DNA of 64,000 nucleotides. Source: Koleobacter methoxysyntrophicus. Lineage in GTDB: Bacteria > Bacillota > Thermosediminibacteria > Koleobacterales > Koleobacteraceae. The notes under the pieces were generated by a model that worked only from the letters and a program-made list of their open reading frames with translations, did not search any database and was not told the DNA's origin. The translations under genes were made by a program, and so were the position numbers. Where the stretch lies: NCBI RefSeq assembly GCF_017301615.1, contig NZ_CP059066.1:1843001-1907000 (forward strand), written 5' to 3'. The stretch's first letter is position 1, and each line of letters opens with the position of its first letter. Positions 16,775 through 62,437 of the stretch are shown one piece after another.

Positions 16775-16886
16775 GCTCTTATCGAGAGCAGGTGGAGGGA
16801 ATGGGCCCAATGAAACCCGGCAACCGGCCTGTAATTCAGGCAGCGGTGCTAATTCCCACAGAATTCCTGATTCTGGGAGATGAGAG
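16775..16886 (+). promoter_or_regulatory. SAM-I (S-box) riboswitch upstream of metK
   Basis: The leader carries the S-box blocks in order: CTCTTATCGAGAGCAGGTGG, GGGAATGGGCCC, ATGAAACCCGGCAACC, GGTGCTAATTCC and GGGAGATGAGAG. The last block pairs with the first CTCTTATC to close P1. SAM binding stabilises P1 and should favour the downstream terminator, turning metK off when SAM is plentiful. Two 16-bp copies of AAAGAACTTCAATAAA follow at about 16944-16976. Confidence 0.95.
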
Positions 16887-27720: not shown

Positions 27721-28248
27721 ATGATGACACTTAGAAAAACAATTTTAGGCGGGTTCTTTATAGGTTTGGGGATCGTGCTGCCGATGGCCTTCCACCTTGT
27801 GAACTTGGGAAGAGTGTTTTTGCCGATGCATATACCGGTTTTGATGTCAGGCTTCTTTTGTGGACCTATCATCGGATTGATCGTTGGATTTATAACTCCC
27901 CTTTTAAGCGGTTTACTGACAGGGATGCCTCCATTTATGCCTCCAACTGCCCAGGGGATGATGGTTGAACTGGCCGCTTACGGCTTTCTGACCGGTTTTT
28001 TTCATCACCAGCTAAAACTGAACAACATTGTTTCACTATTAGGTGCAATGTTTTTAGGGAGGGTAGTTTACGGCCTATTTGGGGCTTTAGTATTCCCGCT
28101 GTTTGGATTAAAGGGCATTTCTCCAATTTATCCTATAACTGCCGGTCTTATTACAGGTCTACCCGGTATTGCCCTCCAGTTAATCATTATTCCCACCACC
28201 CTTTATTTTGTAGAAAGAGGGTTAAAAACAAAGAGATTGGAATCCTGA
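27721..28248 (+). CDS. ECF transporter substrate-binding (S) component
   Basis: A 175-aa membrane protein with about five or six helices. The start ATG 27721 has AAAGGAG 7 nt upstream; the frame further upstream runs through the preceding terminator and is rejected. FLPMHIPVLMSGFFCGPIIG, IVGFITPLLSGLLTGMPP and MVELAAYGFLTGFF match S components of vitamin ECF importers. The vitamin is not clear and no riboswitch was found upstream; the shared EcfA/A'/T module is not in the window. Confidence 0.8.
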   Translation: MMTLRKTILGGFFIGLGIVLPMAFHLVNLGRVFLPMHIPVLMSGFFCGPIIGLIVGFITPLLSGLLTGMPPFMPPTAQGMMVELAAYGFLTGFFHHQLKLNNIVSLLGAMFLGRVVYGLFGALVFPLFGLKGISPIYPITAGLITGLPGIALQLIIIPTTLYFVERGLKTKRLES

Positions 28249-28263
28249 ACCCAGAAGAGCTGT

Positions 28264-28290
28264 TGGCCTCCCGCAGGCCGTTTTTTTTTG
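28264..28290 (+). terminator. Terminator after the ECF S-component gene
   Basis: GGCCT pairs with AGGCC across a 5-nt loop and nine T residues follow. Confidence 0.8.
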
Positions 28291-28406
28291 TAGGAAAAAA
28301 AATATTAAAACTAGAGAATTATAGCGATTCATGCTATAATATTAAAAAAAGCTGCAAAAAAATGAATAAAGTATAAATAAGCGGCGGACTGAGCGAGGGT
28401 ATTGCT

Positions 28407-29570
28407 GTGAAAAAGATAAAAAACCTTACCCTGTTAATAATGTTAATTACCGTTTTTACTATAACATCGTGCACCCCGGAAAAAACGGAAATGGAGGGGT
28501 CAGTGCCTCTGCACGAGGGAAAAACAGCTGAAACAAAAAGGCTTTTATACCGGGAGGAACTGCTGCTGGGTTTTGTTATGAGGGAGATGATGTCACCTTA
28601 TGGCGGTATATATACGAATTATGATAAGGACGGGGTGTTTGAATACGGTGTCAGAGGTTGGGAAGTGCTCTCCGAATCTGTAGGTTTAATGATGTATTAT
28701 GCTGTGATTAGAGAAAATAAAGAGGTGTTCGATGCACAGTACAGGTTCCTTACTGAAAGGATGATGACAAAAGAGGGGTTTATTCCCTGGAAGGTTAATG
28801 AAGATGGGACACCGACTTCTTCAAGCAGTGCGGCGATTGATGATATCAGAATAGCGTATTCCCTCATTAAAGCACATCAATTGTGGAAAGACAGCAGGTA
28901 TCTGCAAACTGCCAAAAAAATTGCTTACAATTTAGTAAAATATGGAGTATATAAAAACTATTTGGTCGATTTTTATGACTGGGAATTTGGAACAAAGGGA
29001 AGTAGTGTTAAGCTTTCATGTATAGATATTGTAGGATTAAAGGCCCTTGCCTCGTACCAACCGGGTTTGCTGAGGGTAGCGGATACGGGTTTGGATCTGC
29101 TGAGAAAATCACTTTATTCTCCGCAGTATCCGTTTCGCAGGATACTGTATGACATTGAAAAAAAGACCTTTAAGAACGAATCTGCAGTAAACATGATCGA
29201 TACATTATATGTTTCAATCCACTTATCGGAAGCCGGAATAAAACAAAGGAAGATGCTGGATTGGATGAGGAAGGAAATAGGTGAAAGGGGTAAAATATAC
29301 GGGCGGTACCATCCGAGCAAAGGGGAGCCGGCAGTAAATTTCGAATCTGCGGCAGTTTATGCTTTAGGGGTGCAGCTTTCAATAAAAGAAGGGGATAGGG
29401 AACTGGCAGACATCCTCATGGAAAGGCTCTTAACCCTTCAGGATACGCGTGAAAACGCTCCGACCTATGGTGGTTTTGTTGACCCGTTCGAGGGTGACGG
29501 CCATTCCTTTGATAATCTGCAGGCCCTTATTGCTATGGCTTTACTGCATAATAGAGAGGGGAAGCGGTGA
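28407..29570 (+). CDS. GH8-like glycosidase lipoprotein of exopolysaccharide operon
   Basis: A 387-aa exported lipoprotein; the signal ends in a lipobox (ITSC with Cys at about 22). The mature part is an (alpha/alpha)6 barrel like GH8. VLSESVGLMMYYAVI near residue 95 holds the expected acid Glu, and AAIDDIRIAYSLIKAHQLW near 150 corresponds to the GH8 DADLDIA-type base helix. BcsZ of cellulose operons and chitosanases belong to GH8. Starting at GTG 28407, it is the first gene of a five-gene cluster and overlaps the next by one base. Its likely job is to trim or release the polymer at the cell surface. Confidence 0.72.
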   Translation: MKKIKNLTLLIMLITVFTITSCTPEKTEMEGSVPLHEGKTAETKRLLYREELLLGFVMREMMSPYGGIYTNYDKDGVFEYGVRGWEVLSESVGLMMYYAVIRENKEVFDAQYRFLTERMMTKEGFIPWKVNEDGTPTSSSSAAIDDIRIAYSLIKAHQLWKDSRYLQTAKKIAYNLVKYGVYKNYLVDFYDWEFGTKGSSVKLSCIDIVGLKALASYQPGLLRVADTGLDLLRKSLYSPQYPFRRILYDIEKKTFKNESAVNMIDTLYVSIHLSEAGIKQRKMLDWMRKEIGERGKIYGRYHPSKGEPAVNFESAAVYALGVQLSIKEGDRELADILMERLLTLQDTRENAPTYGGFVDPFEGDGHSFDNLQALIAMALLHNREGKR

Positions 29571-30424
29571 TGAAAAGTACTAAAAGACAAATAGACGGAG
29601 GGATAATATTAATCCTTATAATCTTTGCTGTTTTAGTTACTTTCATATTTATTGAATACCAGCAGTTGCCAATTGAAATATATTTCCTTTTTGCTCTGAA
29701 TACCTTATTGATTGTTTTTGCGTATTCTTTAGGCCTTGTAGCCGGGCTTATAGGGAGCATGGCCGCAGTTTTTTGCTACGGTACCTATTTAGTATACGGT
29801 GCAGTTGTAAAGGGGCTGATGATGGAAGTAAATTATCAGCAGGTCATGTGGCTGTTCCTTTTCCCTTTGAGTTCATACATTTCCGGCAGGCTTTCTTTAG
29901 CAATAAAGGAAACAATAGAAAAATCAGAGAAGTATATAAAAGACATGGAAGAACTTGTGCTTTTAGACAAGGAAACCGGTTTTAGCAATTCAAAGAAGTT
30001 TTACCTTGACCTTTCTGAGGAGATAAGCAAATCTAAGAGATACGGGACGCCCCTCAGCATAATGCTTATTAAACTGCAGTATTTTGATGAGCTAAGGTCA
30101 ATTTATGGAAATGAGGTATGTAGTAATGCCGTTATCAACATAAGCAGAAAGATAACGGAGCTTTCAAGGGATATCGATAAAAAAGCGAGACTTGAGGCGG
30201 ATAAATTCGCACTTATACTGTCAAATACCGATGAGAAAGGGGCACTGGTCCTTAAAGAAAGATTGGTGAAATTCTTAGAGAATTTAGAAATAAGCGATGA
30301 GGAGGATAGAAGAAAGCTGAATTTAAGTTTTAAAATTGGGATTGCACAGTTGGAAGATAAGGAAGAGGATGCTATTGCCTTTAAAGAAAGAGCCGAAAGG
30401 GAATTGGAGTATGATGTAAGATGA
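29570..30424 (+). CDS. PelD-like membrane protein with degenerate GGDEF and intact I-site
   Basis: A 284-aa protein with about four membrane helices (residues 10-110), a short coiled coil and a C-terminal GGDEF-fold domain (about 125-284). The active-site motif is EADKF instead of GGDEF, so cyclase activity is unlikely. Five residues before it stands RDID, the RxxD inhibitory site that binds c-di-GMP, at the canonical spacing. This combination is what makes PelD a c-di-GMP receptor in Pel operons, though I see no GAF domain here. Neighbours overlap at both ends (TGATG and ATGA), so it is stoichiometrically tied to the polysaccharide genes. I infer a post-translational activator. Confidence 0.78.
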   Translation: MKSTKRQIDGGIILILIIFAVLVTFIFIEYQQLPIEIYFLFALNTLLIVFAYSLGLVAGLIGSMAAVFCYGTYLVYGAVVKGLMMEVNYQQVMWLFLFPLSSYISGRLSLAIKETIEKSEKYIKDMEELVLLDKETGFSNSKKFYLDLSEEISKSKRYGTPLSIMLIKLQYFDELRSIYGNEVCSNAVINISRKITELSRDIDKKARLEADKFALILSNTDEKGALVLKERLVKFLENLEISDEEDRRKLNLSFKIGIAQLEDKEEDAIAFKERAERELEYDVR

Positions 30425-31986
30425 AAAGAACAGCCTTTCTAATGTTTTTATTTATCACTATAATAATGGCTATATTAACGGGTTCGAGCTTTGCCGTCAC
30501 TTACGGCGAAACCCGAAAACGGGTGCTGGTGGTATACGATAACCCTAATTTACTAAACAGGGATTATTCCGGGCTTGCTAACGATTTTTCCGTAATACTC
30601 TCGGAACAGCTGGGCCATTTCAATACAGAAGTAGAAGTAGTAATGGAAAATGAATACAAAGAGGGAATGCTGGAAGGCTACCAGTATATATTTTATCTGT
30701 CTTTGAGAGAAAAATATTCCGTTAACCAAGTGCTTCTGCAGGATATTGCCAATACTGCCAGGACAGTGATCTGGTATGGAGGAGGAATAGAGGAGCTTTT
30801 AAATGCCAATAAAAATATCCCTTTAAAATTCCGCGGCAGGTCAAAGACCTATCATCTTGTTGAGTATAATAAAGAAACTTTTAACTTGGGTCAAAATGCA
30901 GGAATAAACCTGCTGGTAGAGCCTTTAAGTGAAGAAGTGATTACCTACGGTAGGGTCAGCGACGGCAAAGGGGTTTACCCATTAATAGCTAACTGGAAGA
31001 ATTATTGGTTCATGTCAGGGCTGGATACTTCTGGAGTAAAGTACCTTGTATTTAGTGATGTGCTGCATGAAATTTTCGGGGAATACCACAGCGAATACAG
31101 GAAGGTATATCTGAGAATAGAGGATGTCAGCCCTCTTAGATCGCCGAAAAACCTTATGGAAATAGCCGATTACCTCTACAGTAAAAAAATACCTTTTATT
31201 ATTGCACTGATTCCGGCTTATATCAACCCCGAGACCGGTGTCGAAGTATCTATTACAGACAAACCGGAGGTCGTTAAGGCTGTTGGATATATGGTAGAAC
31301 GGGGTGGAACCGTAGTACTGCACGGCTACACCCATCAGCACTACAAAGAAGAGACAGGGGAAGGGTTTGAATTTTGGGATGCCTTTGAAGACAGGCCCCT
31401 TAATGTAAACTATGCTGATTATGTTAGGGAAAGGGTTTTAAAAGGCATAGAGATTTGCCGCGAAAACGGCCTGTACCCCCTGGCTTTTGAACCGCCCCAT
31501 TATGCCATGGCCCAGGATGGCTACAGGGAACTGAAGAAATATTTCTCTACGGTGATCGGTCAACTGCAGACTACTGACAGGAGATTTATCACTGCGTCGC
31601 TGCCGTACGAGATAAGAAATACTAAACGCTTTAACCGATTTCTGCCGGAATCCCTTGGATATGTGGCTGAAGACGGTAGTTTCGGTGTGAATGAGATCTT
31701 AAAAAATGCGGGGAAAATGCTTTTAGTAAGGGATGCCGTTACCGGGGTTTTCTTTCATTCTTTTATGGATAAGGCATATCTGAAACAGATTGTGGAAGGG
31801 CTTGAATCTATGGGATATGTCTTTGCGGATTTAGAGAAAGAAGACAATTGGGTAAAGATAGGGGATTACAATATAAGGAGCACCGCCAAAGGTGATATAA
31901 TATATGAGGGCCCTTTATTGAAAAAGGAAAAAATAAAATCAGGGATTAAAGAGGAGGAAAAAAATCCGCATTTCACAGAAGTATAG
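30421..31986 (+). CDS. DUF2334 polysaccharide deacetylase-like exported protein
   Basis: A 521-aa protein with a signal peptide (to about residue 27), an N-terminal domain of unknown fold (about 30-215) and a DUF2334 domain (about 220-490). DUF2334 is related to NodB-type polysaccharide deacetylases; YLRIEDVSPL carries the metal/catalytic Asp and VVLHGYTHQHY the metal histidines. In this operon it probably removes acetyl groups from the exported polymer. It overlaps the GGDEF-like gene by 4 nt. The C-terminus ends abruptly in a Lys/Glu tail beside an A7 run. A one-base shift would add a membrane anchor (see next entry). Confidence 0.8.
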   Translation: MKRTAFLMFLFITIIMAILTGSSFAVTYGETRKRVLVVYDNPNLLNRDYSGLANDFSVILSEQLGHFNTEVEVVMENEYKEGMLEGYQYIFYLSLREKYSVNQVLLQDIANTARTVIWYGGGIEELLNANKNIPLKFRGRSKTYHLVEYNKETFNLGQNAGINLLVEPLSEEVITYGRVSDGKGVYPLIANWKNYWFMSGLDTSGVKYLVFSDVLHEIFGEYHSEYRKVYLRIEDVSPLRSPKNLMEIADYLYSKKIPFIIALIPAYINPETGVEVSITDKPEVVKAVGYMVERGGTVVLHGYTHQHYKEETGEGFEFWDAFEDRPLNVNYADYVRERVLKGIEICRENGLYPLAFEPPHYAMAQDGYRELKKYFSTVIGQLQTTDRRFITASLPYEIRNTKRFNRFLPESLGYVAEDGSFGVNEILKNAGKMLLVRDAVTGVFFHSFMDKAYLKQIVEGLESMGYVFADLEKEDNWVKIGDYNIRSTAKGDIIYEGPLLKKEKIKSGIKEEEKNPHFTEV

Positions 31987-32105
31987 AAATTATCGCCACA
32001 TTTTTAGCTGTTTTTGTAGGCGTTAATATCTTGAGGTTTATCATCATATTTTTCAGGGTTAAAAAACGGCAGAAAGAAATCTTGTTCAAAGAGAGGGAAT
32101 TGTAA
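31950..32105 (+). CDS. Frame-shifted C-terminal membrane anchor of the DUF2334 protein, or small membrane protein
   Basis: This frame is open from 31950 to TAA 32103, abutting the GT2 start ATG 32106. It has no ATG, GTG or TTG. It encodes a hydrophobic helix (IIATFLAVFVGVNILRFIII) followed by a basic tail (FFRVKKRQKEILFKEREL), a textbook stop-transfer anchor. Joining the upstream DUF2334 frame requires a -1 shift in the run A7 at 31958-31964, equal to one missing A. AGGAGG sits directly upstream of the run. Either the assembly lost an A, or ribosomal/transcriptional slippage makes two forms (free and anchored). Not an independent gene in my view. Confidence 0.6.
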   Translation, partial: RGGKKSAFHRSIEIIATFLAVFVGVNILRFIIIFFRVKKRQKEILFKEREL

Positions 32106-33410
32106 ATGGGCCTTACATCGATGGACTTTTTGTTCTTATATGCATTAATCTCCATATGGATTATGTTGTTGTACCACATCTTCCTGGCTTTCAGCGGCTA
32201 TCGTTACCATGAAGAGGTTTACAGGGACCCTGGAGCTGTACTTTCAGCCATTAAGGAATACCCTTTTGTAACTATACTAGTTCCTGCCCATAATGAAGAA
32301 AAGGTTATAGGGCGGACGGTTAAGGCTGTAATGAACATGGATTACCCCCAGGATAAATTTGAGCTTATTGTGATAAATGACTGTTCTTCAGATAGGACGG
32401 GAGAAATACTCCAGGAGCTGCAGGAAGATTACAATAATCTGAAGGTAATTACAGTTTTACCTCCCGAAGGCGGAAGGGGGAAGGCCGCTGCCCTGAATAG
32501 AGGATTGAGAGAAGCCAAAGGAGAATATATAGCAGTATATGATGCCGATAATACCCCTGAAAGAATGGCCTTGAGGTATCTTGTGGCTGCTATAGTTCAG
32601 GAACCTCAGTTAGCCAGTGTTGTGGGCAAATTTAGAACCAGGAATAAGGATAGAAATATTCTTACCCGGTTTATAAACATAGAGACCCTCGGCTTTCAGT
32701 GGATTTCTCAGGCAGGAAGGTGGAAGCTTTTCAACATTTCTACCATCCCGGGGACAAATTATATTATAAGAAAAAGTATTTTGGACAGATTGGGGGGATG
32801 GAATGAAAAGGCCATTACAGAAGATACGGAACTGAGCATAAGGGTTTATGAAATGGGCTACAGGGAAGATACAGAGTTTAGTATGGAGCTATACGGCTTG
32901 GGTTACAAAATAAAATTTTTCCCTCTTGCGGTTACATGGGAACAGGAACCGGAAACCTGGAAGGTATGGCTTAAACAGAGGACTAGGTGGGTAAGGGGAA
33001 ACATATATGTCATCGGGGAATATTTATTTAAGCTGCTTTCTATAAAAAGGAAGATTATTGCCCTTGACATTCTGTACTTTTTTTCTATATATTTCCTGTT
33101 TCTTTCTTCTGTATTGATTTCTGATATAATATTCATTTCCGAGATCCTTGGTATATCCAATTTAACACTGCAGGGCCCCTTTTTCGTGTTGTGGGTGCTT
33201 GCGTACATATTATTCGTAATAGAAATGGCAATAGCAGTTAATCTTGAGAAAGGCGAAGGGAATTTAAAAAACATACTGCTGATAGCCCTTATGTATTTTA
33301 CATACTGCCAGATGTGGATATTCCTTACTTTGAGAAGCTTCTATTTATCCTTCAAGGATAGGTTGATGGGTATAAAAACCGTAAAATGGTATAAGACCGA
33401 AAGATTTTAA
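32106..33410 (+). CDS. Processive GT2 glycosyltransferase (cellulose/PNAG synthase-like), no PilZ domain
   Basis: A 434-aa inner-membrane enzyme with helices at about residues 5-28 and three or four after 310. The cytosolic GT-A domain has VINDCSSDRTGE (first Asp), YDADNTPER (DxD), AITEDTEL (TED) and QRTRW, all hallmarks of processive synthases such as BcsA and PgaC. There is no C-terminal PilZ domain, so c-di-GMP sensing must be by another protein. The TED segment is duplicated in tandem in frame (residues about 239-253 and 254-268). ATG 32106 abuts the upstream frame. It should polymerise and export a beta-linked polymer whose sugar is unknown. Confidence 0.88.
   Translation: MGLTSMDFLFLYALISIWIMLLYHIFLAFSGYRYHEEVYRDPGAVLSAIKEYPFVTILVPAHNEEKVIGRTVKAVMNMDYPQDKFELIVINDCSSDRTGEILQELQEDYNNLKVITVLPPEGGRGKAAALNRGLREAKGEYIAVYDADNTPERMALRYLVAAIVQEPQLASVVGKFRTRNKDRNILTRFINIETLGFQWISQAGRWKLFNISTIPGTNYIIRKSILDRLGGWNEKAITEDTELSIRVYEMGYREDTEFSMELYGLGYKIKFFPLAVTWEQEPETWKVWLKQRTRWVRGNIYVIGEYLFKLLSIKRKIIALDILYFFSIYFLFLSSVLISDIIFISEILGISNLTLQGPFFVLWVLAYILFVIEMAIAVNLEKGEGNLKNILLIALMYFTYCQMWIFLTLRSFYLSFKDRLMGIKTVKWYKTERF
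32820..32909 (+). repeat. In-frame 45-bp tandem duplication in the GT2 catalytic domain
   Basis: Codons at 32820-32864 read EDTELSIRVYEMGYR and those at 32865-32909 read EDTEFSMELYGLGYK: the same 15-residue unit twice with no spacer. The DNA has diverged, so the duplication is old and tolerated. Confidence 0.8.
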
Positions 33411-33430
33411 AGGGACTGCGGGGGTAAAGA

Positions 33431-35785
33431 ATGATAAGGAGAATCAAAAGAGATGGAATTATGACATTGGTTTTAGTGGTATTCCTTTCAAATTACCTAA
33501 TGGTATCGGCTGTAAAGGCAGCTGAGATATATACCAACCAGGTGGGGAGATTCAACTATTACAGCAATGCTGTGAGGCTGAAGGAGGATTTGGAGGGCAG
33601 GGGTTTTAAGGTTTATATGTCAGAGGGTCCTCCTTATGTGGTAACGGTTGGAAGAAGTTTGACCTATTCAGAAGCACTGCGGGTTAGGGAGAGGTTGAAG
33701 GGGCTTAATATCGATTGTTTCATAGTAAAAATCGACGAGGAAGGGAAAATAACCATTATTGAAGAATCGGATATAAAAGCACTTAATATCTTTCCGCTTT
33801 TAAATGACAGCATCTTACAGGGGGTGCACGGGAGTCAGACCTTATTTTTCTATGTTAATGAAAACTGGGAGCCGGAAGGTAGCAGCTATATTGATTTGTA
33901 TTTTTCCCATTCACTGGTTTCCACAAATCACAAGTCAACCCTCACAGTTTTTATAAATGATAGGCCTGTCAGCACTTTTGAACTTATAAACGAAAAAGCT
34001 GAGAACAGGGCAGTGAGGGTATATGTGCCGAAAGAGGTTGTAGAGAAAGGCTTCAATGCCCTTACACTTCGTCTTTATAAAAGGGTATCTGATGACCCTT
34101 GTGAAGATGCTTACAATCCCGGCAATTGGTTTACTTTAAAAAAAGAAACTATGATCCATTTAGAATACAGAGAAATAATGGATAGACCTATTTTAAGTAA
34201 CTATCCTTATCCTTACTTTAAAATAGGTAGGGAAGACCCTGTAGATGCTATTATAGTGATACCTAAGAATTTCAATCAACGGCACTTGAGTGCTGCAGCA
34301 TACTTGGCCGCTGGTTTTGGTAAATATGAGCCCTATAAAAATATTAGAGTTAAGGTAGTAACAGAGCCTGAAATTAAAGGATATTTAAATGACAGCAATT
34401 TAATCTTTATAGGCAGTGATGAGGAATTTGACAACATAGATGGCTTACCATCAACGCAGGAAGAGGAAGGAGCAGGTGTGCTGGAAGAATTTATTTCTCC
34501 ATGGAACCCCAGCAAAATGGTTTTGAGGATTGCGGGAAAAGGGGAGTATATTCAGGAGGCTTCTAAGGCTCTTTTCTACCCAAATGTGGTCAATCAGATG
34601 AAAAGGCCCCGTCAGGTGATTAAAAATTTAGAACTGCTGCTGGAGAAAGCAGACCCTTTTCTAGAAAAAGTAACTTTGTCTGATATAGGTTATGATGATA
34701 TAATTGTTAGAGGAAAACATCAGCAGGCGGCAGCTTTTAATTATAGTCTGCCTACACAGGTAGAGCTTAAGGAAGGAGCAGGTATAACCCTTAACCTTAG
34801 ATATTCTCAAGCCCTTCAATTTATTCAGGCATCTGTAACTGTTGAAGTAAACAATATACCCCTCGGCAGCAGAAGACTGACCTATGAAGGAGCAGAAGGG
34901 GAAGAGGTCTTCTTCAAATTCCCGCCGGAACTCCTTCGGGAGAAGAATTTCGGTATAAGAGTCTTGTTTAATCTAGATTTACGGGGGATTGACTGCACTC
35001 AAAGGTATGAGGAACATGCATGGGCAGTTATTGGCAGAAACAGCTTTTTGTATTTACCCCATGAAGAAGGCGACAGGAAAAACCTGAAAAACTATCACTA
35101 TATTTTCTCAAAAAACGGCAGGATTGAGGATACAGTAACTGTAATTCCGGATAACCCAAGACTAGGACACATAGAAACGGCCTTAAATATATTTGCACAT
35201 ATGGGACACTATTTAAAGGATTTAGGGGATATAGGCCTGGTAAAGGCAGGAGATTTAGCGGATGACCAAAAGGATAAAAATATGATACTTATCGGCACTC
35301 CGAGGGAAAATTTTTATATCAAAACAATAAACCAGCATCTGCCGGTTAAATTTGATGAAAACCGTGGGTGCTTTATTCCCAACAATGATTTCCCTTTTTT
35401 AGAGGAACTAGGAAACGAAGTCGGTATAGTTCAATTGATAGACTCCCCGTGGAGCAGCGGGAAAAAAGTGATGGTAGTTACCGGTGCAGATTATTTTGCA
35501 CTAAAAAATGCAGAAATAATGCTGACAAGCCTTAATATTGCAAATACCCTCTCAGGAGTAGTATGTATGATGGACAATGCAGGGGAAGTATATAGTTTTG
35601 AATCCGTGGAAAAGGCTGATACTATACAAAAAAACAAAGAGGATAAATCCAGTAAGCTGTTTTGGTTTCAAACGCTTCGTGAACTTCTCAGTCAGAGAAA
35701 CGGTAAAATACTTGCAGTTATTCTAGGGCTTATTATTGCTACAATGTTCATTCTATTCTATGTGATCAAGAAAAACTACCGGTGA
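33431..35785 (+). CDS. BcsB-like synthase subunit with N-terminal SPOR domain
   Basis: A 784-aa protein, last gene of the operon. A signal peptide (to about residue 33) is followed by a SPOR domain (about 35-105; IYTNQVGRFNYYSNAVRLKE, then YVVTVGRSLTYSEALRVRER), which in other proteins binds denuded peptidoglycan glycans. The rest is BcsB-like: two carbohydrate-binding-like and flavodoxin-like repeats (LQGVHGSQTLFFYV, SYIDLYFSHSLV, then FNYSLPTQVELKEGAG) and one C-terminal membrane helix (about 757-778). BcsB guides the nascent polymer outside the membrane and is needed for synthase activity. A SPOR fusion would tether the complex to the cell wall. A hairpin without T-run follows (35774-35801). 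Confidence 0.82.
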   Translation: MIRRIKRDGIMTLVLVVFLSNYLMVSAVKAAEIYTNQVGRFNYYSNAVRLKEDLEGRGFKVYMSEGPPYVVTVGRSLTYSEALRVRERLKGLNIDCFIVKIDEEGKITIIEESDIKALNIFPLLNDSILQGVHGSQTLFFYVNENWEPEGSSYIDLYFSHSLVSTNHKSTLTVFINDRPVSTFELINEKAENRAVRVYVPKEVVEKGFNALTLRLYKRVSDDPCEDAYNPGNWFTLKKETMIHLEYREIMDRPILSNYPYPYFKIGREDPVDAIIVIPKNFNQRHLSAAAYLAAGFGKYEPYKNIRVKVVTEPEIKGYLNDSNLIFIGSDEEFDNIDGLPSTQEEEGAGVLEEFISPWNPSKMVLRIAGKGEYIQEASKALFYPNVVNQMKRPRQVIKNLELLLEKADPFLEKVTLSDIGYDDIIVRGKHQQAAAFNYSLPTQVELKEGAGITLNLRYSQALQFIQASVTVEVNNIPLGSRRLTYEGAEGEEVFFKFPPELLREKNFGIRVLFNLDLRGIDCTQRYEEHAWAVIGRNSFLYLPHEEGDRKNLKNYHYIFSKNGRIEDTVTVIPDNPRLGHIETALNIFAHMGHYLKDLGDIGLVKAGDLADDQKDKNMILIGTPRENFYIKTINQHLPVKFDENRGCFIPNNDFPFLEELGNEVGIVQLIDSPWSSGKKVMVVTGADYFALKNAEIMLTSLNIANTLSGVVCMMDNAGEVYSFESVEKADTIQKNKEDKSSKLFWFQTLRELLSQRNGKILAVILGLIIATMFILFYVIKKNYR

Positions 35786-35872
35786 AAATTAACCGGCAGT
35801 TTCACAATTGATTTTTAAAACGGCAAAGCATGTCAAAGTGAGCCGCAAATTTAAAAATAGGAGTGAATTTTT

Positions 35873-36589
35873 ATGAGGCTGGCCATTCTTGGGGACATTC
35901 ATTCAAATATTTATGCTTTAGAGGCTGTTCTAAAGGATGTGGAAAAACATAAACCCGATGAGATAATATGTACAGGCGACCTGGTGGGTTATGCACCTTT
36001 TCCCAATGAGGTTATCGAAACAATAAAGGAAAAGGGAATAAGAACTGTTATGGGGAATTACGATGACGGCATCGGCAATTTCCGGCTTGTATGTGGATGT
36101 GACTACAAAGATGCTCATGAACAGTCTTTGGGGGAAAAATCTATTGCATGGACTAAAGAACAGACTTCTGAAGAGAACAAAGAATTTCTCAGGAATCTAC
36201 CTCAAGAATTGCGATTTAGAGCCGGGGGGTTCGATGTCCTGGTCTTCCATGGAAGCCCCAGGAGGTTAAATGAATATCTTTACGAAGATACCGATGAACA
36301 GGTTTTCGATGAAATAGGGAAGATGAGCAGAGCGAATATTTTAATATTCGGTCATACCCATATCCCCTATCACAGGCTCTACAATAAAAGGCATTTTATA
36401 AATGCCGGCAGTGTCGGTAAACCCAAACACGGGAACCCCAATGCCCTTTATGCCCTTGTTGATATAAATGAAACCGTGGCAGCAGCCTTTATAGAGGTGC
36501 CTTATGATGTTGAGAAGATTGCCCGGGCAATAGAAGAATCGGCCCTTCCCGATGAATTTGCGGATAAATTGAGAAATGGGAATAGATAG
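35873..36589 (+). CDS. YfcE-type metallophosphoesterase
   Basis: A 238-aa calcineurin-like phosphoesterase. Metal motifs are in order: GDIHSN (residues 7-12), CTGDLVGY near 36, MGNYDDG near 62, VFHGSPRR near 123 and FGHTHIPYH near 159. The GNYDD form and the family layout match small-molecule or phosphodiester hydrolases (YfcE, MJ0936) with a dimetal centre. Substrate is unknown. ATG 35873 has TAGGAG upstream. It is a single gene between the polysaccharide operon and the DUF134 block. Confidence 0.85.
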   Translation: MRLAILGDIHSNIYALEAVLKDVEKHKPDEIICTGDLVGYAPFPNEVIETIKEKGIRTVMGNYDDGIGNFRLVCGCDYKDAHEQSLGEKSIAWTKEQTSEENKEFLRNLPQELRFRAGGFDVLVFHGSPRRLNEYLYEDTDEQVFDEIGKMSRANILIFGHTHIPYHRLYNKRHFINAGSVGKPKHGNPNALYALVDINETVAAAFIEVPYDVEKIARAIEESALPDEFADKLRNGNR

Positions 36590-36648
36590 AAAAAGGTTCA
36601 GAAGGCTTTACGGGCAGTACTGCGATTATTGCGATTATTGGCCCCTTC

Positions 36649-36678
36649 TTGACATTTAACTCCTAATTTATATATAAT
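36649..36678 (+). promoter_or_regulatory. Promoter of the DUF134 gene
   Basis: TTGACA at 36649 and TATAAT at 36673 with an 18-bp spacer, 34 bp upstream of the GTG start. Confidence 0.7.
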
Positions 36679-36711
36679 ACAAGTGATACTCGGGAGAAAG
36701 CAGGTGAAAAT

Positions 36712-37227
36712 GTGCCCAGGCCTACCAAATTCAGATTCGTAGAACATATTCCCCGGTTAACCTATTTTAAACCTAAAGGTGTTCCGTTGAGAGATCTGGA
36801 AGAAGTAAATTTAAATATAGAGGAACTGGAATCCATAAGATTAAAGGACCTGGAAGGTCTTGATCAGGAATCCTGTGCTGAGAGGATGAAGGTTTCAAGG
36901 GCTACATTCCAGAGGGTATTAACATCGGCCAGAGAGAAAATAGCAGAAGCATTAATTTACGGCAAAGCTATAAGGATTGAGGGCGGAGATTTTAAAGTAA
37001 TTGCAAGGAGGTTTTTCTGCAGGGCCTGCAACCTGGAATGGGAAGTCCAGAATGGCTATAGTCAGGAAGATACACGGGAATCTTCAAATAATAATATTGA
37101 GTGTCCGGATTGCGGCAGTAAAGAGGTTATCACCGTACCTCCTCGAGGCCGGGACCGCTGTTGGAGGAAAGGAAGACACGGATACGGCGGGCCTCCGTTT
37201 AGAAACAGTGATGATGTGGATGAATAG
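36712..37227 (+). CDS. DUF134 family predicted DNA-binding protein
   Basis: A 171-aa protein that begins MPRPTK at GTG 36712, the usual DUF134 opening. [20 protein letters not shown] and [20 protein letters not shown] form a sigma-like HTH. The C-terminal half is extended by a zinc ribbon (CRAC near 104, CPDC near 130). DUF134 genes are repeatedly found beside NifX-like and MinD-like genes, as here, so it is probably the local regulator, perhaps sensing metal or Fe-S status. It has its own promoter and terminator. Confidence 0.85.
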
Positions 37228-51149: not shown

Positions 51150-51173
51150 TTAATTAGCAATTCAATAATGTAA

Positions 51174-51284
51174 TCGCTTAATCCGAGAGGAACGGGGGAC
51201 CCAATTTTTCAGGGGCGAATCTCTTCTACACGGAAGGGTAGGGTTACTCTTTCGACCCAAGCCCGTCAGCTAACCTCGTAAGCG
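51174..51284 (+). promoter_or_regulatory. c-di-AMP riboswitch (ydaO/yuaA class)
   Basis: The leader matches the ydaO consensus closely. It starts CGCTTAATCCGAGAGGAACG, then GGGGACCCAA, GGGGCGAATCTCTTCT, GGGTAGGGTTACTCTTTCGA, CCCGTCAGCTAACCTCG and ends TAAGCG, which pairs with CGCTTA. Members of this class are off-switches for c-di-AMP, usually for K+ or osmolyte transport and cell-wall enzymes. Here it precedes an oligopeptide ABC importer. Confidence 0.95.
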
Positions 51285-51303
51285 TTGAAGGGGAAATATC
51301 CGG

Positions 51304-60734: not shown

Positions 60735-60764
60735 TCTATTCAAATATATCGATAACCGATGTAA

Positions 60765-61054
60765 AAGCTGTGAAAGGGGAAAGTAGGTTCATTTCGGACC
60801 TTTTAGCGAGCCGGGGATGGTGTAAGCCCGGTGGAAAGGATGGATCGAAGTTCCCCCTGGAGCTGCGAGTTGAAAGGATTTCGAGTAGATGGAGCCGGAA
60901 ACTTCCACCGTTAAAAGGAAGGGGGTATAAGGATTTATTATTGTATATCCCGTACCCTTTTAAAGAGAGGGTTTATATGTTATATATAAACCAAGGTGGG
61001 TGGTACCGCGGAAATATTCCTCCGTCCCAAAATGGGAACGGAGGTTTTTTATTT
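60765..61054 (+). promoter_or_regulatory. T-box riboswitch, Phe (UUC) specifier, upstream of pheA
   Basis: Stem I contains AGCGAGCCGGGGATGGTGTAA and GGAAACTT-type blocks. The specifier codon TTC at 60851-60853 follows GAAG and precedes CCCCCTGGAG, the canonical register. The T-box AAGGTGGGTGGTACCGCGG is at 60993-61011 with TGGT pairing to tRNA 3' ACCA. The terminator CCTCCGT..ACGGAGG + T6 is at 61019-61050. Uncharged tRNA-Phe should allow read-through into pheA. Confidence 0.92.
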
Positions 61055-62204: not shown

Positions 62205-62437
62205 TCAAAAGTGATGACGGAAAGAAGTAACCTTTTTAGTCTACAAAGAGAGCCGGTGGTTGGTGTAAACCGGTTAGACGAAAGGTGAAATACATTCCTG
62301 AACTGCAGGCTGAACGGTAGGTTTACCCTGTAGGCTGTGCCGTAATTTACGTTATAAAGCAGAGTGGATTTATCCTTGGATAAATCAACTTGGGTGGTAC
62401 CGCGGATTAGACCTCGCCCCATACGGGCGGGGTTTTT
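62205..62437 (+). promoter_or_regulatory. T-box riboswitch, Tyr (UAC) specifier, upstream of aroF-tyrA (module 1)
   Basis: Specifier TAC follows GAAA and precedes ATTCCTGAACTGCAGG, in the same register as the Phe leader. The first T-box AACTTGGGTGGTACCGCGG is at 62387-62405 and its terminator CCTCGCCC / GGGCGGGG + T5 at 62411-62437. Confidence 0.92.

Follow-up and report, generated by a model that had tools for sequence, protein, structure and literature searches.

A degenerate GGDEF protein encoded in a ydaJKLMN-like operon of Koleobacter methoxysyntrophicus is very probably a c-di-GMP receptor of the YdaK/PssE type

Introduction

The nearest described relatives of the protein studied here are YdaK of Bacillus subtilis and PssE of Listeria monocytogenes. 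The B. subtilis operon ydaJKLMN is described as including the degenerate GGDEF protein YdaK together with YdaM and YdaN, a putative synthase, and YdaK is reported to bind c-di-GMP but not to make it (PMC5422440, PMC7064775). The secondary I-site of B. subtilis YdaK is given as RxxR, and the R202A and D205A substitutions are reported to abolish polysaccharide output (PMC5422440). According to a further report, c-di-GMP shifts the conformation of the whole domain of purified YdaK in an I-site-dependent manner, and the interaction between DgcK and YdaK in B. subtilis also needs the I-site (PMC7064775). Listeria PssE, in which RxxD is followed after five residues by DKDDA, is reported to bind two c-di-GMP with a Kd of 0.79 uM and to be essential for production of the Pss polysaccharide (PMC4125290).

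Here we describe a gene at 29567-30424 of a 64-kb window (the whole stretch of K. methoxysyntrophicus DNA that was analysed, 64,000 nucleotides). Its product is very probably a membrane-anchored YdaK/PssE-type c-di-GMP receptor that switches on the adjacent polysaccharide synthase. Because YdaK and PssE have already been shown by experiment to be receptors, we regard the locus as a good example of a described class and not as a new system. It likely extends c-di-GMP control of a secreted polysaccharide to a Firmicutes lineage other than Bacillus and Listeria.

Results and Discussion

Gene, operon and motif anatomy

The degenerate-GGDEF gene is second in a run of five and overlaps each of its neighbours by 4 bases. 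The run reads GH8-like, degenerate GGDEF, DUF2334, GT2 and BcsB-like, which is the order and domain content of B. subtilis ydaJKLMN, and we take the four partner genes to be YdaJ, YdaL, YdaM and YdaN, respectively. This match points to a c-di-GMP receptor of the YdaK/PssE type, the most likely class for the protein on the combined grounds of homology and operon. The features are as follows.

28264..28290, + strand: terminator-like hairpin ending the upstream gene and marking the operon boundary (consensus scan; such sites are about as frequent in shuffled sequences)
28407..29570, + strand: YdaJ-like glycosyl hydrolase family 8-like protein, first gene of the operon (387 aa; PF01270, E 1.3e-12)
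29567..30424, + strand: YdaK/PssE-type protein gene (ORF of 285 aa; start overlaps the preceding stop)
29963..30406, + strand: degenerate GGDEF domain, residues 133-280 (Pfam PF00990, E 1.8e-21)
30038..30040, + strand: R158, counterpart of the secondary I-site arginine of B. subtilis YdaK (R in 96/98 rows)
30167..30178, + strand: RDID, the primary I-site, R201-D204 (R and D each in 96/98 rows)
30194..30208, + strand: EADKF replacing GG(D/E)EF, residues 210-214 (GG[DE]EF in 0/108 rows)
30407..30418, + strand: C-terminal EYDV, a family hallmark beside the I-site (Y282 95%, D283 91%, V284 88%; 98 rows)
30421..31986, + strand: YdaL-like DUF2334 (deacetylase-like) protein (PF10096, E 1.5e-53)
32106..33410, + strand: YdaM-like GT2 polysaccharide synthase (PF00535, E 2.9e-33)
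33431..35785, + strand: YdaN-like BcsB-type protein with an N-terminal SPOR domain (PF03170, E 5.6e-61; PF05036, E 9.2e-8)

GGDEF is the sole Pfam domain of the 285-aa protein, and its NCBIfam matches fell far under the curated cut-offs, the general GGDEF domain model excepted. Residues 201-214 read RDIDKKARLEADKF, in which exactly five residues, KKARL, separate RDID from EADKF. Translation of the ORF bears out the RDID-(5 residues)-EADKF arrangement that the first-pass annotation had read in a GGDEF-like domain. The interval given for it, 30175-30215, needed correction, as the motif begins 8 bases earlier (30167) and stops before 30215 (30208). Both glycines and the glutamate of GG(D/E)EF are substituted, and an active diguanylate cyclase is rejected on account of EADKF in place of that motif. 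The secondary I-site region reads KSKR, not RxxR, which we count against a receptor function.

Cellulose synthases are switched by c-di-GMP through a PilZ domain. No PilZ domain was found in the GT2 protein (Pfam, E 0.1), so c-di-GMP control, if any, must come from another subunit. A search of the 64-kb window for c-di-GMP riboswitches at Rfam gathering thresholds also returned none; this counts against a receptor function, and control of the operon by such a riboswitch is rejected. A promoter scan of 27900-36800 gave 20 sites against a shuffle mean of 22.6, which is no excess.

The same genome encodes six further GGDEF proteins, all with both GG[DE]EF and RxxD, so the c-di-GMP signal can be made in this cell. 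Since all six carry RxxD, its presence in one sequence alone proves little. RxxD occurred in just 12 of the 39 intact GG[DE]EF domains that we examined (not a random sample) and is therefore neither required for catalysis as such nor a fixed feature of the fold.

Predicted structure and comparison with known receptors

The predicted model of the protein (mean pLDDT 89.1, pTM 0.67) has four N-terminal helices (2-31, 36-55, 57-85 and 90-130) leading into a GGDEF fold. The helices are long and their sequence is hydrophobic, and we predict that they span the membrane. The closest solved structures were GGDEF domains of diguanylate cyclases, several of them with bound c-di-GMP. The best fold match in the PDB was 3ign (Z 23.8, rmsd 2.2 over 156 residues; model residues 128-285); 2wb4 (Z 22.2, rmsd 1.8, 155 residues) and the FimX GGDEF structure 3hva were also among the matches. 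A sequence search of the PDB gave 33 matches, none of them named YdaK or PssE.

By its published description, YdaK shares with the Koleobacter protein its gene order, N-terminal membrane helices and degenerate GGDEF domain, as well as RxxD (R202-D205) five residues before SDERI and a secondary I-site arginine. The two differ in the degenerate motif (EADKF here, SDERI there), in the secondary I-site region (KSKR against RxxR) and in the host, which here is a Firmicute outside Bacillus. PssE, encoded in pssABCDE, is likewise membrane-anchored; its degenerate GGDEF domain has RxxD at a five-residue distance from DKDDA, and the polysaccharide of the neighbouring synthase genes cannot be made without PssE. 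However, pssE closes its operon downstream of the synthase genes, whereas the Koleobacter gene precedes the DUF2334 gene. The features of the YdaK/PssE type found in Koleobacter are the degenerate motif, RxxD at a distance of five residues, predicted N-terminal helices, the operon and a synthase without PilZ.

PelD and FimX-like proteins had been named as examples of such receptors in the first-pass annotation. PelD, of Pel polysaccharide systems in Pseudomonas and in Gram-positive Pel clusters, is reportedly a receptor for a polysaccharide synthase that has a degenerate GGDEF domain with an I-site. PelD carries a GAF domain and is encoded in the pel operon, whereas the Koleobacter protein has GGDEF only (Pfam) and lies in a yda-type operon; with no GAF domain and no pel operon, membership of the PelD group is rejected. 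The GGDEF domain of FimX is non-catalytic, and FimX binds c-di-GMP through a degenerate EAL domain and is not known to do so through an RxxD I-site. Pfam detected no EAL domain in the Koleobacter protein, so FimX is a poor analogue and that membership is rejected as well. The type of protein proposed, a receptor, is supported; its nearest relatives are YdaK and PssE instead of the analogues named.

Conservation across relatives

Relatives were collected from genes beside DUF2334 genes of related genomes, from the surroundings of the synthase gene in 80 genome contigs, and by a profile search of 395 genomes from the order of Ligilactobacillus aviarius. Seven of the 80 synthase loci (L059, L096, L103, L112, L115, L121 and L127) yielded no family member. 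We retained 108 family proteins, namely those with a known genome-wide GGDEF count. The exclusions were the six cyclases of the Koleobacter genome (L001-L006), seven intact GGDEF proteins from neighbouring genes, a fused frame lacking the I-site stretch (L033/L050), the contig-end fragment L072, the fragment L202, the single-genome repeats L158, L161 and L165, and those rows of L007-L036 that lacked a GGDEF count or repeated the window. Genomes were scored as having other GGDEF proteins by Pfam hits, intact motifs being read in the 39 domains only. The family genes occur in two arrangements, either before a DUF2334 gene (yda type) or at the operon end, downstream of the synthase (pss type, as in Listeria).

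GG[DE]EF was absent from all 108 proteins. RxxD retains its R together with its D in 95 of them, and where GGDEF would stand these 95 rows show 62 distinct pentapeptides. In genomes that encode other GGDEF proteins (98 rows), the four best-conserved columns of the whole protein are D204, R201, R158 and W95 (98% each), with R158, R201 and D204 each present in 96 rows. Identity to the Koleobacter protein is as low as 16-25% among these relatives. R201 and D204 are also the sole invariant columns of a 40-row alignment (A4), whose rows were hand-picked after the motifs had been seen and include none without RxxD; 95/108 is the fair figure. The aligned sequences thus indicate, beyond chance, that the residues named for c-di-GMP binding persist while the catalytic motif is free to drift. 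The prediction that orthologues would conserve RxxD and not GGDEF was borne out, which supports the earlier argument that selective preservation of RxxD reflects function rather than decay. Three rows lack RxxD despite GGDEF proteins in their genomes (L123 and L126, from Secundilactobacillus, and L198) and count against a receptor function. Taken together, R158, RxxD and the C-terminal EYDV form a signature by which sequences can be checked for such receptors.

Six pss loci of the Paenibacillus type (L073, L081, L089, L090, L093 and L104; about 11.8-14.3 kb) encode a PssE-type protein without GGDEF but with RxxD, and a GGEEF neighbour without RxxD. In these loci catalysis and sensing are reciprocally divided. 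The loci L112, L115, L121 and L127 (Virgibacillus, Salibacterium and Halobacillus) have DUF2334 and GT2 genes and no YdaK/PssE-type gene in the stretch examined.

Lineages without cyclases

Nine genomes carry a PssE-type gene and have no Pfam GGDEF hit anywhere in the genome: Enterococcus moraviensis, E. rivorum, two of Ligilactobacillus aviarius, Candidatus L. faecavium and four others. A further cyclase-free genome (G793) has only a fragment of the gene and is not among the nine. RxxD is lost in 10 of the 10 proteins from these genomes versus 3 of the 98 others, and five of the ten have lost R158 as well. There are ten rows for nine genomes because L117 and L201 share that of E. rivorum (G412), which encodes two PssE-type proteins, both without RxxD. 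The association of RxxD loss with absent cyclases gives a Fisher p of 7e-12 with kinship ignored. On the tree, two changes suffice to explain the loss of cyclases and three the loss of RxxD, so the link is suggestive and not independent proof; independent-pair contrasts comprised two pairs only, giving no significance and having no power. The cyclase-free lineages are therefore consistent with RxxD being maintained for c-di-GMP, without proving it. Our literature search found no statement linking loss of cyclases with loss of RxxD, although such a link may nonetheless be published.

The RxxD-less protein of Ligilactobacillus is still strongly constrained. L113 and L118 differ with a dN of 0.0147 and a dS of 0.338 (dN/dS about 0.04), and L113-L114 agrees (dN 0.012, dS 0.317); five pairs were compared in all, one of which had a dS of 1.9 and two of which yielded no dS estimate. 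Such constraint suggests a role beyond sensing, hinting that this protein acts independently of c-di-GMP. For the cyclase-free Lactobacillales, we give an even chance to the view that the YdaK/PssE protein outlived its ligand, shed RxxD and is still under selection for another task in the polysaccharide synthase that does not involve c-di-GMP, probably that of a subunit which is constitutive or gated by other means. If this is true, the Koleobacter protein, with its site retained, would combine a scaffold and a sensor in a two-part device. Lactobacillales whose receptor may have outlived its signal are the most interesting by-product of the analysis, as they would constitute a natural experiment on the fate of a receptor once the signal is gone.

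Proposed mechanism and alternatives

We propose that the GGDEF domain of the Koleobacter protein has lost catalysis and retained the primary I-site (R201, D204) together with the secondary I-site arginine R158. The other diguanylate cyclases of the cell, of which six are encoded, would raise c-di-GMP, which would dock at the I-site of the degenerate domain. The domain would then alter its shape, and this change, relayed through the membrane helices, would activate the adjacent YdaM/YdaN-like polysaccharide synthase without PilZ. Whereas gene anatomy, operon, predicted fold, conservation pattern and the six intact GGDEF proteins come from the present analysis, ligand binding, conformational change and activation of polysaccharide synthesis are proposed by analogy with B. 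subtilis and Listeria.

An alternative account is that the gene is a decayed cyclase on its way out, with RxxD left by inheritance. RxxD is indeed likely to be ancestral, given its presence in every one of the six other GGDEF proteins encoded in the genome. Against this, R and D remain among the most conserved residues even at 16-25% identity while the GGDEF place has diversified into 62 pentapeptides, and the open reading frame and the operon are both maintained. Neutral decay is contradicted by the conservation in the alignment (108/98 rows) and is rejected, and we consider a decayed cyclase highly improbable. The same low standing applies to a structural synthase subunit that has dispensed with c-di-GMP control. 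That the gene persists without RxxD in GGDEF-free lineages, under the constraint measured in Ligilactobacillus, speaks for such a subunit; the Koleobacter genome, however, encodes six further GGDEF proteins and retains both RxxD and R158, and a purely structural role is scarcely credible there.

The I-site region might instead be chiefly the surface on which a partner cyclase docks, in the manner of DgcK on YdaK, with ligand binding secondary. The reported I-site dependence of the DgcK-YdaK interaction in B. subtilis favours this idea (PMC7064775), yet Listeria PssE, with RxxD in the same place, is reported to bind c-di-GMP alone (PMC4125290), and R158, the secondary I-site counterpart that is distant in sequence, is conserved equally. 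We judge it unlikely that docking is the chief function, and docking is in any case compatible with a role as c-di-GMP receptor.

Further observations on the locus

The DUF2334 gene stops early, past a run of seven A (31958-31964), and the C-terminal membrane helix of its relatives (e.g. L009) is encoded in another frame up to 32105. The early stop is a sequencing error, a true frameshift or slippage. The GT2 synthase has a 15-residue extra copy around its ED(T)E motif at 32853-32897 (TEDTELSIRVYEMGY then REDTEFSMELYGLGY). Among 96 parsed synthase frames, spacing in this region ranges from 25 at the short end to a maximum of 40, the longest being found in the Koleobacter genome and in MAG UBA3567 with its duplicates. 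Elsewhere, the window contains a c-di-AMP riboswitch at 51165-51299 (102.9 bits), together with a SAM riboswitch and two T-box leaders (16776-16886; 60761-61032; 62205-62424).
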